A model generated the notes under the pieces. The model searched no databases. It was not told where the DNA came from and worked only from the letters and a program-made list of their open reading frames with translations. A DNA stretch of 5,965 bases from a bacterium (GTDB lineage: Bacteria; Planctomycetota; J058; JAJDCP01): assembly GCA_030428695.1 (NCBI GenBank), contig JAUIEM010000494.1, forward strand, positions 1 to 5,965, given 5' to 3'. Of this stretch, positions 2 through 5,965 are shown piece by piece. Every line of letters starts with the position of its first letter. The stretch's first letter is position 1. The position numbers were made by a program, and so were the translations under genes.

Positions 2-226
2 ATGATGCTGGGCGGCGACACCTGGCCCGGCGTGCAGCCGGTGGCCGACAAGACCGGCATGCTGTTCTCGACCCTGCTGCCCTCGGACCTGAGCCCCGAC
101 ACCACCACCCTGATCGCTCCGGCCGAGGTGCACCCGATCTACAACGTGACCGGCGTCGATTGGCTGGGGCAGAACAAGCCCGAGCTGAAGCGGGCCGTCA
201 TCTGCGCGCAGGACGATGCGCTGGGC
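2..226 (+). CDS. Internal fragment of an ABC transporter substrate-binding protein (branched-chain amino acid type)
   Basis: About 75 codons are open from the left edge, with almost every third base G or C, as in real coding sequence of this GC content. The protein reads like the inner part of a Leu/Ile/Val-type periplasmic binding protein (periplasmic-binding-protein-like I fold). A Gly-Gly segment near the start is followed by a stretch of the type that lines the ligand cleft. Then come TGVDWLGQNKPELKRAVIC and AQDDALG, which resemble the linker and the beta strand of the second lobe. Such proteins capture amino acids or small amides in the periplasm for an ABC permease. Both ends are missing: the 5' part lies outside the window, and after about base 226 the frame continues only as the antisense of trkA, so the gene is cut at that junction. 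The family call rests on pattern recognition; the coding call is firmer. Confidence 0.6.
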
Positions 227-916
227 CGCCTTGACCGTCATCCCGACGTGGGGCAGGAAGGCGGACAGGTGCTGCTTGGCGATCACGACGGAGATCGTGT
301 CGCCGGCCAGGATGCGCGTCTGACCGGTCGGAATCAGGAACTCGTCGTCGCGCACGACGCCAGCCAGCAGGAAGGGCGGCTCGGGGATGCGGGCGCGCAG
401 CTCGCGCAGCATCAGGTCGGCGAAGTCGGTCTGCTCGCCGACCGGGAAGCCCCGGAACAGGATCTCCCCGTCGGCGAAGTCCGCGACCTCGAGGGAGCCC
501 GGCACCTCGATCAGGCGCAGCAGCGTCTCGACGACCTCCTCGCCGGTGTGGATCATCTTGTCGATGCCGAGCCGCTCGCGCAGGAAGCCGTCGACGTCGC
601 CGGACAGCTCGGTGTTGCGGACCCGGGCGATCTTGCGCTTCACGTTTGGGTAGCGGCTCGCGAGCAGGCAGATGATCAGGTTGCGATGGTCGTTGTCGGT
701 GACCGCGATCACCAGCTCGGCCTCGCCGATCCCGGCCTCCTCGAGGATCTCCAGGCTCGCCCCCTCGCCGCAGACGGCGAGCACGTCGAGGCGCTCGTTC
801 AGCCGCTCGACCACCTCGGGGCTGCTGTCGACCAGCGACACCTCCTGGCCCTCGAGCGACAGTGCCTCGGCGAGGTTGGTTCCGACGACGCCGCCGCCGA
901 CGATCAGTACGCGCAT
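209..916 (-). CDS. trkA: TrkA, potassium uptake regulatory subunit, truncated after its first half
   Basis: TrkA is the cytoplasmic, nucleotide-binding (NAD/ATP) peripheral subunit that gates the Trk potassium channel subunits TrkH/TrkG. The start is the ATG at 916-914. The N-terminus is a Rossmann RCK_N domain: MRVLIVGGGVVG gives the GxGxxG loop (Gly7, Gly9, Gly12), and Asp30 closes the second strand (SLVDSS), as expected for NAD binding. GEGASLEILEEAG and the following AVTDNDHRN are typical TrkA motifs. An RCK_C (TrkA-C) domain follows at about residues 140-220, ending in LAGDTISVVIAKQHLSAFL. Full TrkA is about 450-460 residues with two such units. Here 236 residues match, ending in AAQRIVL, exactly where the second GxGxxG should start. 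Beyond that the frame stays open to the window edge but reads as the antisense of another gene. A promoter candidate lies upstream at 948-977, and a weak purine-rich AGGA lies 5' of the ATG. Confidence 0.88.
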
Positions 917-945
917 CCCTGTTCCTGTGCTGATTCCGTGACCGC

Positions 946-1221
946 TCATTGTAGCGCTCTGCCGCGGCCCTTGCCATCGGAGGACGCATCGGACGGGGCG
1001 CCCTTCCAGCGCGGGCGGCGTTCGGCGGCGCGGAGGGCTTCCGCCACGCGGTCGCGGGCCTCGCCAGCGGCGGGTCCGAAGCAGGCGTGCACCAGGCCTT
1101 CGATCGCCCTCCCCGTGCCCACCCGATGCCCCACGCATACCCAGCAACCGCTCTCCAACCGCTCTGCGCCTCCGCGACTCTGCGCCTCTGCGTTTCCTTC
1201 CGTCGGCCCGGCGAGGACCAT
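946..1221 (-). CDS. Doubtful small hypothetical protein (91 aa) upstream of trkA
   Basis: A minus-strand frame from an ATG at 1221-1219 to a TGA at 948-946 has no stops. Its last 50 or so codons (about 946-1105) have mostly G/C third positions and a plausible helical, Arg/Ala/Glu-rich composition (GEARDRVAEALRAAERRPRW), so they could be a real small protein or the remnant of a gene end. The first 30 codons run through the C/T-rich direct repeat at 1146-1197 and look unlike protein. No convincing ribosome binding site precedes the ATG, and the 3' end overlaps the trkA promoter candidate. I recognise no family. A start further in, at the GTG at 1095-1093, would give about 49 residues and avoid the repeat. 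In GC-rich DNA an open frame of this length also arises by chance. Confidence 0.22.
   Translation of the reverse strand: MVLAGPTEGNAEAQSRGGAERLESGCWVCVGHRVGTGRAIEGLVHACFGPAAGEARDRVAEALRAAERRPRWKGAPSDASSDGKGRGRALQ
948..977 (-). promoter_or_regulatory. Putative sigma-70-type promoter of trkA
   Basis: Read on the minus strand, TACAAT (953-948) matches the -10 consensus at 5 of 6 bases. ATGGCA (977-972) lies 18 bases upstream and matches TTGACA at 4 of 6. Transcription would start near 941, about 25 bases before the trkA ATG at 916. This is an A/T-containing hexamer in very GC-rich DNA at the right distance and orientation. It is unproven, and the organism's sigma-factor preferences are unknown. 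Confidence 0.42.
1146..1197. repeat. Short direct-repeat element of the CTCTGCGCCTC type (dispersed repeat candidate)
   Basis: Two perfect 11-base copies of CTCTGCGCCTC lie at 1162-1172 and 1178-1188 (period 16), followed by CTGCGTTTCC. Just upstream, AACCGCTCT occurs twice (1146-1154 and 1157-1165, period 11). Read on the minus strand this is the familiar ACGCAGAGGCGCAGAG pattern. From memory, very similar short blocks recur between genes in many environmental genomes and yield spurious peptides of the LCASATLRLCVSF kind. It sits between the divergent trkA and lipoprotein genes. Its function is unknown. I see no inverted repeats or transposase here. Confidence 0.55.
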
Positions 1222-1281
1222 CCCGAGGAGTGCCCACCCAGCCGCGGGATCCCCCCGCTGGCCGCCACCCCGGCGCTCGGC

Positions 1282-1287
1282 TATCCT
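1282..1287 (+). promoter_or_regulatory. Possible -10 element for a leaderless lipoprotein transcript
   Basis: TATCCT (4 of 6 matches to TATAAT, with the TAnnnT core) ends six bases before the ATG at 1294. That is the spacing at which transcription would begin on the A of the start codon. No purine-rich Shine-Dalgarno sequence lies in the 20 bases before the ATG, which fits a leaderless mRNA. The -35 position at 17-base spacing (TGGCCG, 1259-1264) matches only 3 of 6. This is an inference from spacing. Confidence 0.25.
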
Positions 1288-1293
1288 CGATGC

Positions 1294-2160
1294 ATGCGCT
1301 TGCTCCTCATCCTCCTCATCCCCCTGCTCGGCTGCCGCGGCCCGGCCCCGGCGAGCTCGCTCTACAACCCGCTCGGCTGGCCCGCCAAGGGCGTCGGCGG
1401 GCTCGGCACCCTGGCGGCGGCGAGCGGCCTCCCCCTGGTGCGCGACTGCGGCCGTCTGCTCCAGGGCAGCGGCGAGCTGCTCGAGGCGCCGGCGATGCTG
1501 GTCGAGGGCCTCGTGACCTTCGCCCCGGAGCAGCTGCTCGGCTCCGGGGTCAACCTCGTGCGGGGGACGGGCAGCGTCGTCGTCTCGGCGAGCGCCGCCC
1601 CGTTCTTCTTCGTGACGGGCGCGAACGTCGACCTCGCCCGCGACGCCGAGCGGGTCAACGCCGCCCTCGCCTACCTCGACACCCTCGACGTCGCGACCGT
1701 CGTCGACGCGGACGATCCGCGCCGGCAGGTCTTCCCGCCCGGCACCCGGGTCGAGCCCTGGGCCGGCCACCTGCTGTGGACGCTGCCCGACGGCAGCCGC
1801 ATCCTGCAGGTCGCCGAGATGAGCCCCTGGTTCTCCTTCTGGCTCTGGGCGACGGGCCAGTCGACCGACCGCGCCCAGGAGCGGCTGTGGGGCTTCGTGG
1901 TCGGGGATGCGGAAGCCTGGGAAGCGCGCAGCGCGCGGCACCGCACGGTCGCCATCCTCCATGAGATGTACCACCAGCAGTTCCAGCTCCGCGACCGCTT
2001 CCTCGGCTGGACGACGGCGTACTGGCCCGCCTACGGCATCAGCTACGCGCGGCACGGTTGGTACGGCACCTGGGCGGAGACCGGCCCCGGCATCGGCGCG
2101 GGCATCGTCGACGGCGCCCTGCGCAGCTGGAGGATGCCGCGCCTGGAGGATCCGCCGTGA
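1294..2160 (+). CDS. Predicted lipoprotein with HExxH zinc-metallopeptidase-like motif (288 aa)
   Basis: The ATG at 1294 gives a short lipoprotein signal (MRLLLILLIPLLGC): one Arg, a Leu/Ile core and an LLGC lipobox with Cys14 as the lipidation site. Arg at +2 gives no inner-membrane retention signal by the E. coli Asp rule. The mature part begins with a Gly/Pro/Leu-rich segment (SSLYNPLGWPAKGVGG) and a hydrophobic stretch near residues 100-110 (APFFFVTG). The C-terminal third holds HEMYH (His223, Glu224, His227), an HExxH zinc-binding/catalytic motif, and Glu262 (WAETG) sits 35 residues after the second His as a possible third ligand. The spacing, and the Gln/Arg-rich and Trp/Tyr-rich flanks, resemble small predicted peptidase families with a downstream NxxE-type ligand, but I cannot name the family. 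It may act on or bind something at the outer membrane. HExxH is short enough to occur by chance, so peptidase activity is unproven. The TMTC-like gene follows in the same direction. Confidence 0.8.
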   Translation: MRLLLILLIPLLGCRGPAPASSLYNPLGWPAKGVGGLGTLAAASGLPLVRDCGRLLQGSGELLEAPAMLVEGLVTFAPEQLLGSGVNLVRGTGSVVVSASAAPFFFVTGANVDLARDAERVNAALAYLDTLDVATVVDADDPRRQVFPPGTRVEPWAGHLLWTLPDGSRILQVAEMSPWFSFWLWATGQSTDRAQERLWGFVVGDAEAWEARSARHRTVAILHEMYHQQFQLRDRFLGWTTAYWPAYGISYARHGWYGTWAETGPGIGAGIVDGALRSWRMPRLEDPP

Positions 2161-2252
2161 GCTGCGGGTCGAGCGCGATGGGCCCATCCCCCCAGGCCAC
2201 CGCCCGCTTCGACGAGCTGGTCTCGCGCCTTCCGTCCTGAGCCCGGGGCTGG

Positions 2253-2275
2253 CACAATGGAGGTTTACGGGGAGG
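2253..2275 (+). promoter_or_regulatory. Possible extended -10 and strong ribosome binding site of the TMTC-like gene
   Basis: GGGGAGG at 2269-2275 is a strong Shine-Dalgarno sequence six bases before the ATG at 2282. It selects that start over all upstream in-frame codons. Upstream, CACAAT (2253-2258) preceded by TGG resembles an extended -10 (TGn plus 4 of 6), with no recognisable -35. If used, transcription would start near 2265, just before the ribosome binding site. The ribosome binding site is convincing; the promoter part is weak. Confidence 0.4.
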
Positions 2276-2281
2276 AACCGG

Positions 2282-4618
2282 ATGCGCGGGCTGGCGCGGC
2301 TGCTTCTCCCGGCGCTGCTGCCGGTGTGCGCGCTCGCGGTCTACGTCGAGACCCTCGGCCATCCCTTCCAGTACGACGACCGTTGGAACCTGGTCGAGAA
2401 CACCAACGTCGAGCTGGCGCGGCTCGACCTGCCCTCCCTGCGGCGCGCGGTCTACCTGCACAAGAAGAGCGTCCTGCGCCCGCTGTCGAACCTCGGTTTC
2501 GGCCTGTCCTACTACGTCGGCGGCCGGTCCCCGCGCGCCTTCCGGCTCGTCAACCTCGGCCTGCACGCCCTGAACAGCCTGCTCGTCTTCTTCCTCCTGC
2601 GCGCCACCGCCCGGCGCCTGGCCCGGCGCAGGCAAGAGGAAGCGGGACGCACGGACCCACAGCCACCGGCAGCTCCCCCTTCGTCGCTCTGGCCCGGGCT
2701 CGGCGCCCTCCTCTGGGCGGTGCATCCGGTCCACACCTCGGCGGTGATCTACATCCACCAGCGCATGGTGCTGCAGGCGTCGTGCTTCATGCTCCTCGCC
2801 CTGCTCGCCTACGGCCACGGCCGCGAGCACCCGCGGCGGCGGCGGCTCGCCTTCTTCGCCTGCGGGCTGTGCTTCGTGCTCGGGCTCTTGAGCAAGGAGA
2901 TCGCGCTCTTGCTGCTGCCCGCGCTGTGCCTGTACGAGTGGACCGTGTTCCGCTCCCCGGACCGCGGCTCCGCGCCGAAGCTGCTCGTCGGGCTCGGCCT
3001 GACGGTCGGCCTGGGCCTCTTCGCGCTGACGGTCTACGGCTCGAGCTGGCTGACCGGACTCCAGGGACGCCCCGACGTGCTCGGCCTGCGCCTGCTGACC
3101 CAGTGCCGGGTGCTCGGGCTGTACATCCTGCTGCTCTTCTTCCCCCACCCGAGCCTGCTGAACATCGATCACGCCTTCGCGCTCTCCCGCTCGCTGCTCG
3201 AGCCGTGGACCACGTTGCCCGGGCTGCTGCTCCCCCTCAGCCTGCTCGCCCTCCTCGTGTTCACCTGGCGGCGCCGGGCCTGGGCCGCCTGCCTGGGGCT
3301 CGGCTGGTTGCTGCTGATGCTCTCCCTCGAGGCGCCCGTGCACGTGACCGACGTGGTCGCCGAGTACCGCCTCTACCTCGCCAGCCTCGCCCCGCTGTTC
3401 CTGCTGCTCCCGCTCCCCGCCCGCCTGACCCCTCGCGGGCGCGCGCTGCTCGCCTGCGGGCTGCTCGCCGCGGCGCTGTTCGGCGCGGCCTGGACCCGCG
3501 AGCGCGGGAGGGTCTGGAGCACGCCGCTGCAGCTCTGGGCCGACGCGGCCGCGAAGAACCCCGACAGCCCCCGGCCGCGCCTGCACCACGGCCTGGCGCT
3601 GCTGCACCGCGGTGACCACGCCGAGGCCCTGCCCGAGCTCGAGGCCGCCGACCGCATGCTGCCCCTGCTCGAGACCCGCGTCGCCCTCGCCCGCTGCCTG
3701 TTCGCCCTCGGACGCCGCGAAGACTCCCGGGCCAAGCTCGACGGCGCCCTCGCGATGGAGGCGAAGAACGCGCGGGAGCGACGGCTGGTCGCGTCGGGCC
3801 TGCGGCTGCACGGCGAGCTCGGCCTCGCCTACTCGCTGGTGTTGCCGGACTCATCCGATGTGCGGAGCCGGGCCGAGCTCGGCCTGCTCGCCCTGCTGCG
3901 ACGCCGCCCGGCGCGCGCGCTGTACTGGGCGGAGAGCGGGGTCGCCCGGTATCCGGACCAGGTCGATCTGCGCCTGGTGCTCGCCCGGATCTACGCGACC
4001 CTCGGCCGGCGCAAGGACGCGCTGCGGGAGATGACCGTCGCCGAAGGGCTCGCCCCGCAGCCGCCGGCCTTCTACCGCGACCGGGCGCAGCTGCTGCTCG
4101 ATGCCGGGCTGGCCAACGAGGCCCGCGCGATCCTGCTCGAGCTGCTCGACGACCGGCCGGACGACGCCCGGGTGCTGCGGCTGCTCGCCGACGCCTGCGA
4201 GCTGCTCGGCGAGCGGGCGGAAGCCGACGCCTACCTGCGCCGGGCCGGGATCGACGCGGAGCAGCGCTGGCGCAAGCGCGGCGAGCGGGCCTTCAACCGC
4301 GGGGACTTTCCCGAGGCCGTGCGCTGCCTGCGCGAGGCCTATGCCCGCAGCGGCGGGCGGGAGGTCGCGGTCCAGCTCGCCGCCGCCCTGCTCGAGGATG
4401 ACGCGGCGGCCGAGGCCGAGCGCCTGTGCCGCGAGCTGCTGAGGGCCGACCCCGGCTTCGCCAAAGCCTCCGGCGTGCTCGGCCTGGCGCTCGCGCGGGG
4501 GGGCCGCTACCGCGAGGCGATCCCGCACTTCGAGGCGGCGCTGCGCGCTTCCCCGCAGGATGCGCGTGCGCTCCACAACCTGCGCCTGTGCCGGGAGAAG
4601 GCCGCGGAGCAGGAGTAG
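2282..4618 (+). CDS. Multi-pass membrane protein with TMTC/GT-C-like domain and C-terminal TPR repeats (778 aa)
   Basis: The ATG at 2282 follows a strong ribosome binding site and starts a transmembrane segment. Residues 1 to about 420 form about 11 hydrophobic segments of the kind seen in TMTC-type GT-C proteins (protein O-mannosyltransferase-like, CAZy GT105). Family landmarks are present. The first extracytoplasmic loop carries an acidic pair (HPFQYDDRWNLVEN, Asp32-Asp33), the position of the catalytic/metal-binding Asp in GT-C enzymes. HPVHTSAVIYIHQR follows at 148-161, then SKE at 204-206 and AEYRLYLASLAP around 360-371. The HP..T.AV.YI.QR form is that of the bacterial branch. A Pro/Gln-rich loop lies near 118-137. 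From about 426 to 775 there are eight or nine degenerate TPR units (for example ALARGGRYREAIPHFEAALRASP), a likely protein-binding surface. By family analogy it would transfer sugar from a lipid-phosphate donor to a protein, but many bacterial members are uncharacterised. It may be co-expressed with the lipoprotein 121 bases upstream. Confidence 0.88.
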   Translation: MRGLARLLLPALLPVCALAVYVETLGHPFQYDDRWNLVENTNVELARLDLPSLRRAVYLHKKSVLRPLSNLGFGLSYYVGGRSPRAFRLVNLGLHALNSLLVFFLLRATARRLARRRQEEAGRTDPQPPAAPPSSLWPGLGALLWAVHPVHTSAVIYIHQRMVLQASCFMLLALLAYGHGREHPRRRRLAFFACGLCFVLGLLSKEIALLLLPALCLYEWTVFRSPDRGSAPKLLVGLGLTVGLGLFALTVYGSSWLTGLQGRPDVLGLRLLTQCRVLGLYILLLFFPHPSLLNIDHAFALSRSLLEPWTTLPGLLLPLSLLALLVFTWRRRAWAACLGLGWLLLMLSLEAPVHVTDVVAEYRLYLASLAPLFLLLPLPARLTPRGRALLACGLLAAALFGAAWTRERGRVWSTPLQLWADAAAKNPDSPRPRLHHGLALLHRGDHAEALPELEAADRMLPLLETRVALARCLFALGRREDSRAKLDGALAMEAKNARERRLVASGLRLHGELGLAYSLVLPDSSDVRSRAELGLLALLRRRPARALYWAESGVARYPDQVDLRLVLARIYATLGRRKDALREMTVAEGLAPQPPAFYRDRAQLLLDAGLANEARAILLELLDDRPDDARVLRLLADACELLGERAEADAYLRRAGIDAEQRWRKRGERAFNRGDFPEAVRCLREAYARSGGREVAVQLAAALLEDDAAAEAERLCRELLRADPGFAKASGVLGLALARGGRYREAIPHFEAALRASPQDARALHNLRLCREKAAEQE

Positions 4619-4628
4619 CTCGGGCCCC

Positions 4629-5132
4629 TCAGTCGCCGATCTGCTCCTCGAGGCCGAGCTTGATCGCGCACTCCTTCTTGAAGCAGGTCGAGACCGTGTC
4701 GAACAGCTCCTCGAAGGTCGCCCTGACGTTCAGGGCCTTGTCGCGCTTCGGGTCGCCGATCATCGCGACCGTCAGATCCTTGGTGATCTCGACCAGTGAC
4801 ACTTCGTCCATCTTCAGGGTCTCCAGCTCCATGTCCCGTTCTCCCCAGCGTTCTTCGGTCTCCGCGACGCAGGCGTGGTTGTGGGCGCAGTCCAGGCAGG
4901 TCGCGTCGAGCGGCTGGTAGAGGAAGTCCGACTCGACCAGCAGCCCCTGCCCGAACTTGAAGCCGAAGCAGTTCGGGCGCTCGACGCCGCGGTCCCAGGT
5001 GAACATGCAGTTCCGTTCGCAGCCCGGGCTCACCCCGCCCTTCCAGCGACACACCCAGCCGACCATGCAGCCCCGGCCGGGCGTGGTCGACAGCGACAGG
5101 TCGAGGTGGCTGCAGCTTCCGGATTCCTCCAC
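4629..5132 (-). CDS. Cysteine-rich protein of unknown function (about 167 aa), 11 Cys with a CxxCxHxHxxC-like motif
   Basis: I do not recognise this protein. From a GTG at 5132-5130 it has 167 residues and 11 cysteines (7, 22, 28, 38, 42, 55, 79, 82, 88, 150, 155). A compact TCLDCAHNHAC segment (Cys79, Cys82, His84, His86, Cys88) looks like a zinc or other metal site. Aromatic and Gly-rich stretches (VGWVCRWKGG, DRGVERPNCFGFKFG) suggest a small disulfide- or metal-stabilised fold. The C-terminal third (about 100-167) is acidic and helical, with two more Cys and a QIGD end. There is no signal peptide or transmembrane segment from this start. The GTG is the only in-frame start near the upstream stop (13-base gap); a GAGG overlapping that stop is about 11 bases away. 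The next in-frame ATG (5066) would lose Cys7 and Cys22 and has no ribosome binding site. It probably shares an mRNA with the hydrolase upstream. It could be an accessory, chaperone-like or protective partner, but that is inference. Confidence 0.75.
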   Translation of the reverse strand: MEESGSCSHLDLSLSTTPGRGCMVGWVCRWKGGVSPGCERNCMFTWDRGVERPNCFGFKFGQGLLVESDFLYQPLDATCLDCAHNHACVAETEERWGERDMELETLKMDEVSLVEITKDLTVAMIGDPKRDKALNVRATFEELFDTVSTCFKKECAIKLGLEEQIGD

Positions 5133-5145
5133 CGTCGCGCCCGCC

Positions 5146-5965
5146 TCAGCTGGCGTCGTAGGGCTTCGGGGTCCGGCGCGCGTACAGGTACGGAGGGTTG
5201 GAGGTCTCGCAGCTGATGTTGAGCTTGCGGACGTTGCCGCCGCCGATCTTGTTGTTCGCCTGGTCCATGATCCAGGCGCGCCGCTTCTTGCTGCGCTCGT
5301 TGCCGTTGGCCCACTGGATGAACAGGAAGGCGTGGTTCGAGCCGCGGGGGCTGAAGCGCCACTTGCAGCACAGGTAGTCGCCCGGCTGGATCGCCTTGTA
5401 GTCCTCGAAGGGGATCGCCTGGGTCTGACGCAGCGGCCCGCCCGTGAAGTCGAAGGGTTTCCAGCGCCGCGCGTAGGGCTCCTTCGCCTCCTTCCAGGGC
5501 AGGTACTTCTTCCACTTCGCATCGTTGCTGTGGCTGGTGCGGATACCGGAATACTCCCACACCCGCTTCGCCCAGTGGCCGCAGCAGTTGGCGCGGGCGA
5601 CGCGCTGCTGCTCGTTCGGCCAGTGGCCGGGGCGGCTGCCCCACTTGCCGGGCTCCATGCGGCGGTCGTTGACGTGCATGATGCCGGCGAGCAGGATCTT
5701 CTGAGCGCGGGTCAGCTTGTGGTTGTCCCGCTTGAAGATCGCCGGCGGCTTGTCGGGCAGGCTGTAGTTGGCGAAGTAGGTCATCAGCTCCTGCTTCTCG
5801 GCGTCGCTGAAGCGGGCCTCTTCAGTCGGAGCAGTTTGGCCGACTTGGACGCGCGTCGGTCGGCTGTGGTGGATCATGTAACCGCCGTGCATGAGATTGT
5901 GGTCGGTCGGTTGGACTTTTCCGCTCGGCGACGATGCCCGAGCCAAGATCGTGTACTCGCCTGGA
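5146..5965 (-). CDS. Papain-like (NlpC/P60- or CHAP-like) cysteine hydrolase, 5' end outside window
   Basis: The frame is open from the right edge (PGEYTILARASSPSGK is the first readable part) to a TGA at 5148-5146, about 272 visible residues. A TTG at 5946-5944 could serve as a start, but coding-like sequence continues past it, so I treat the gene as 5'-partial. The C-terminal half has the order expected of a papain-like peptidoglycan/amide hydrolase. A Cys heads a helix (RANCCGHWAKRVWEY, Cys codons at 5586-5581). Then come a PGD turn (IQPGDYLCCKW), a His-led beta strand (SNHAFLFIQW, His codon 5334-5332), and a later strand MDQANN that may give the third polar residue. These match the usual Cys/His/polar layout of NlpC/P60 and CHAP domains, with two adjacent candidate nucleophiles. 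The N-terminal half is Lys-, Asn- and Trp-rich and unrecognised. It could be a cell-wall hydrolase, a secreted effector or a phage-derived lysin. The 5' end is needed to see any signal peptide. Confidence 0.72.
   Translation of the reverse strand, partial: PGEYTILARASSPSGKVQPTDHNLMHGGYMIHHSRPTRVQVGQTAPTEEARFSDAEKQELMTYFANYSLPDKPPAIFKRDNHKLTRAQKILLAGIMHVNDRRMEPGKWGSRPGHWPNEQQRVARANCCGHWAKRVWEYSGIRTSHSNDAKWKKYLPWKEAKEPYARRWKPFDFTGGPLRQTQAIPFEDYKAIQPGDYLCCKWRFSPRGSNHAFLFIQWANGNERSKKRRAWIMDQANNKIGGGNVRKLNISCETSNPPYLYARRTPKPYDAS

Follow-up and report, generated by a model that had tools for sequence, protein, structure and literature searches.

The join at bases 209-226 of the window, the whole 5,965-base stretch of DNA analysed here, is in all probability an artificial chimera made of the DNA of two organisms. 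Two gene identities, a difference in their taxonomic affinity, a sharp switch from one to the other and a short word into which both readings fit are directly observed at this place. The features concerned are the following:
2..226, plus strand: fragment of an ABC-transporter substrate-binding protein (SBP), 75 residues, Rhodobacterales-type, bounded by the left edge of the contig and the join, and identified from relatives and DNA matches.
209..226, no strand assigned: the join, with the word CAGGACGATGCGCTGGGC; the plus strand reads the SBP residues QDDALG and the minus strand the TrkA residues AQRIVL, the best-supported shared part being 212-226.
209..916, minus strand: first half of trkA, with the start codon at 916, the first NAD-binding domain and the first TrkA_C domain, cut before the second NAD-binding domain.

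The initial annotation had read the left plus strand as a substrate-binding protein, and this identification is borne out by the relatives. Using a 90-residue query, 1215 of 1247 scored candidates reached E <= 1e-3, and the 120 relatives listed of the 1215 found are 87-93% identical across 83% of the query. All six of the listed relatives that carry an organism name belong to Rhodobacterales (one Roseovarius, two Defluviimonas and three Rhodobacteraceae). The window shares with SBPs possessing PF13433/PF13458 (P0112 and others) a stretch of 75 residues that is 93% identical to the best relatives, but it differs from them in lacking whatever lies past the contig edge on one side and past the join on the other. 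The 11 aligned relatives all run on as AQDDALG-LPSVATY, while the window departs directly past the G (base 226). The pattern x-P-[S/G]-x-A follows the same G in 33 of 33 DNA rows of SBP relatives and is absent from the window; these rows come from relatives at 76-84%, from others at a greater distance and from three plasmid loci, so that their identities are 53-84% with none of the 93% relatives among them, and four of the rows repeat the stretch of another. In four family-route searches, SBP relatives at 76-84% identity were found in 1 of 2, 5 of 14, 6 of 11 and 6 of 28 genomes, and in the phylum of G007, three of 398 genomes had one at E <= 1e-100, with 46-50% identity. Among plasmids, 12 records match the whole-window DNA (11 Paracoccus and one Ponticoccus), none of which covers anything past base 227; the SBP protein matched 17 plasmid records at <=63% identity (Paracoccus, 11; Thioclava, 3; Ponticoccus, Falsirhodobacter, and Rhizobium, 1 each). 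No SBP relative was confirmed in the viral contigs searched.

The right minus strand is TrkA, as had also been proposed. Pfam matches on 916-209 are TrkA_N (E 1.5e-24) and TrkA_C (E 3.4e-8), and NCBIfam NF007039 is matched over positions 1-232 of 446 with 194.6 bits, which is below the whole-protein cut-off of 293. There are 111 TrkA relatives of the window among 7993 scored candidates, the closest one listed being P0001 with 58% identity. The first NAD-binding and first TrkA_C domains resemble those of TrkA, the Trk system potassium uptake regulator (NF007039, PF02254, PF02080), but the copy in the window is without the second half, being cut by the join: an intact TrkA has two NAD-binding and two TrkA_C domains in about 450 residues, and here 236 residues, the first half, extend to base 209. 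The fit stops with the beta-strand preceding the second Rossmann motif, where the initial annotation had placed the end of the match and where the residue scores collapse. It had also named, as a sign of a continuous gene, an intact TrkA running on into the minus-strand translation of the left edge; the 12 TrkA relatives aligned to the window and read through the join all diverge there, and none continues into that translation.

Residue scores were derived from 74 TrkA relatives, namely those of P0001-P0075 that have 430-500 residues. At the join, they are 0.19 (A), 0.11 (Q), 2.77 (R), 1.75 (I), 2.51 (V) and -0.45 (L), and the next eight residues past L total -21.7, with the first two at -4.15 (R) and -3.21 (A). 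The V, encoded by bases 214-212, is thus still positive, the L (211-209) is slightly negative, and everything beyond is strongly negative. The SBP reading is firm through base 226, and the TrkA reading is firm to 212 and permissible to 209. Since 212-226 fits both genes and 209-226 may do so, the shared word is probably about 15 and at most 18 bases long, and a longer overlap is not likely; this length rests on residues. The claim that all 18 bases are common to both readings therefore stands for the SBP strand, where it is certain, and on the TrkA strand it is firm only to 212.

Had the trkA DNA ended at 227, a resemblance to TrkA in the reverse reading of the SBP bases would be a matter of luck. 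The six TrkA-like residues sum to 6.88. Among the minus-strand hexamers of 31 SBP genes, 18 in 36,276 reach or exceed this score, as do two in 9,164 taken from the remainder of the window. One of 189 hexamers from the SBP part of the window itself also reaches it, which counts against a chimera. The hexamer of the window lies at the 12th percentile, below 88% of the 74 true TrkA relatives, and its fit to TrkA is fair, not strong. At the DNA level, identical runs of at least 12 bases between the trkA of the window and eight of the 31 SBP genes occur at a rate of 2e-6 per placement and extend to 13 bases at most. The whole 18-mer is present in two of the 33 SBP rows, which are identical to each other over the compared stretch. 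Among 55 trkA rows, some of them repeated genes or hits to the second domain, the closest agrees with it at 13 of 18 positions. A shared word of this kind at the join would be unlikely to arise by chance.

The affinities of the two genes point to different organisms. SBP relatives were found in 17 of 385 genomes of one class, which would be Alphaproteobacteria; in the eight best of these 17 genomes, the SBP is 77-83% identical to that of the window and the TrkA 27-37%, and the two genes lie on different contigs in all eight. Similarly, of 59 plasmid records with a TrkA match, 30 are listed, and the alphaproteobacterial TrkA proteins among these (Shinella, Sinorhizobium and Azospirillum) are 32-35% identical to that of the window. 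TrkA relatives at <=40% identity are scattered over many phyla, and no alphaproteobacterium appears in the record titles (80 loci listed of 243 found). In the phylum of G005 (record title: Planctomycetota), 38 of 198 genomes have TrkA at E <= 1e-40, the best at 46% identity; among 97 genomes from the phylum of G006 (record title: Omnitrophota), P0001 as a query found one at E <= 1e-80, with 36% identity. Conversely, the SBP relative P0112 found none of 294 genomes at E <= 1e-60 in the phylum of G005, which has TrkA relatives, in a search run without a positive control, and an SBP search in nine genomes with TrkA loci gave remote matches alone, 27% identical, in two of the nine. The bulk of the contig probably comes from one GC-rich, poorly sampled bacterium outside Alphaproteobacteria. 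Base composition was tried as a separator of the halves and failed, its values being near equal (GC 68.6% vs 69.1%; GC3 97.1% vs 96.5%), a likeness of the 226 bases to trkA that counts against a chimera.

The arrangement was not found in the loci and viral contigs searched. A relative with the same inverted arrangement, which the initial annotation had named as a sign of a real join, was sought in 140 fetched loci, 34 with SBP and 104 with TrkA at E <= 1e-15, and none had both genes together, most of the SBP loci being only about 3.2 kb long. None of the 26 24-mers lying within 197-245 occurs in these 140 loci, and the 31-base junction pattern was found in no viral contig. A database protein, P0232, is identical to the TPR protein of the window across 778 residues, and the one contig recorded for it is 5965 bases long; from this single entry, the window is most likely the whole contig, in which case the alien 226 bases would be its end tail. 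In length, such a tail would correspond roughly to a single short read or fragment.

The rest of the window has features of its own. A close pair of 15-base words, CTCTGCGCCTCCGCG and CTCTGCGCCTCTGCG, lies at 1162-1192 between trkA and the next gene; a similar intergenic word occurs in other environmental genomes, but a 16-base form was present in none of the 140 loci. The frame at 1294-2160 (plus), scanned against Pfam in a longer form from 1087, has a lipoprotein-like start, and the frame at 5146-5964 (minus) has a lower GC (65%) and runs off the contig; neither was matched by any Pfam or NCBIfam family at E <= 0.1, nor convincingly by PHROGs. The protein at 2282-4618 (plus) has a C-terminal TPR array and a hydrophobic first half. 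Some of its relatives are named protein O-mannosyl-transferase, while the two closest, at 44% and 40% identity, carry no protein name. In the phylum of G005, it was found in none of 392 genomes, a search also run without a positive control.

A microhomology-mediated chimera, which was the leading proposal of the initial annotation, agrees with the differing affinities, the sharp switch and the shared word. We infer an annealing step and the stage of its occurrence as follows. The 3' end of one molecule, whether from the second bacterium's trkA or from the SBP gene of Rhodobacterales type, would anneal to the other molecule at the shared word (about 15-18 bases) through mis-annealing or template switching. 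Its extension would follow, be it during amplification, in end repair or in library PCR. The resulting chimeric read or reads may then have become the terminal 226 bases in a contig otherwise derived from one bacterium.

Two published kinds of chimera resemble this course of events. In the MDA chimeras described in PMC1855051, displaced 3' ends prime on complementary words, and >70% of the junctions show such a word of 2-21 bases. Inverted joins make up 406 of 475 chimeras; the parts of 337 of these 406 lie <10 kb from each other, and the authors favor an intramolecular route. The opposite orientation and the short complementary word (2-21 bases there, about 15-18 here) are shared with the window, but the chimeras described there arise mostly within one molecule, while two organisms seem to be involved here. 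In the account of PMC8674242, single strands with microhomology mis-anneal during end repair and give rise to chimeric reads; the mis-annealing of two single strands at a short homology, followed by extension to a chimeric read, would be the same here, while the material described there is formalin-fixed human tissue. The shared word agrees with both routes. Since a join between organisms requires an intermolecular event, the end-repair route or library PCR would suit the window better than MDA.

The join may also have been made by the assembler, which would have linked the sequences of two organisms at the shared word with no chimeric molecule existing. This would be an artificial join as well, and its chances lie inside those of the artificial chimera in the broad sense. 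The position of the join near the contig end, where wrong extension occurs, speaks for it, together with the unchanged 18-mer in the two mutually identical SBP rows. The k-mers common in assembly exceed 15-18 bases, and the shared word is shorter than the usual k-mers or overlaps. A chimeric molecule or read is therefore the likelier of the two routes that the initial annotation had offered, and an error of assembly at a short k-mer is rather unlikely, with perhaps a minor share of the probability.

An origin in one living genome fares far worse. A real chromosomal join, that is, a non-alphaproteobacterial bacterium with a Rhodobacterales SBP piece inside its trkA, is very improbable. The same is true of a genuine rearrangement, in which an inversion or illegitimate recombination would have put the SBP gene and trkA together: the equal GC and GC3 of both halves are in its favor, and real rearrangements are also mediated by microhomology, but the affinities of the halves differ, none of the 140 loci (with the short SBP loci among them) has both genes, and P0112 has no match in the phylum of G005 under the uncontrolled search given above. 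The genuine inversion that the initial annotation had kept as its less likely alternative accordingly finds no support, and with halves that point to two organisms, the word "inverted" has little meaning. Horizontal transfer of a Rhodobacterales SBP gene piece into the trkA of another bacterium is the least probable of all. It would account for the 87-93% identity to a Rhodobacterales-type family within the contig of another organism, but the stretch from contig edge to join holds a gene fragment only. The scanned frames (six against Pfam and six window frames against NCBIfam) hit no family of mobile elements, and a search of phages with 209-5965 found no match.

The join has its sole import in annotation hygiene, and bases 1-226 are to be trimmed or flagged. 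A gene caller would report the truncated trkA and the SBP fragment as belonging to one genome, and the 226-base tail could mislead binning, screens for horizontal transfer and searches for fusion proteins.
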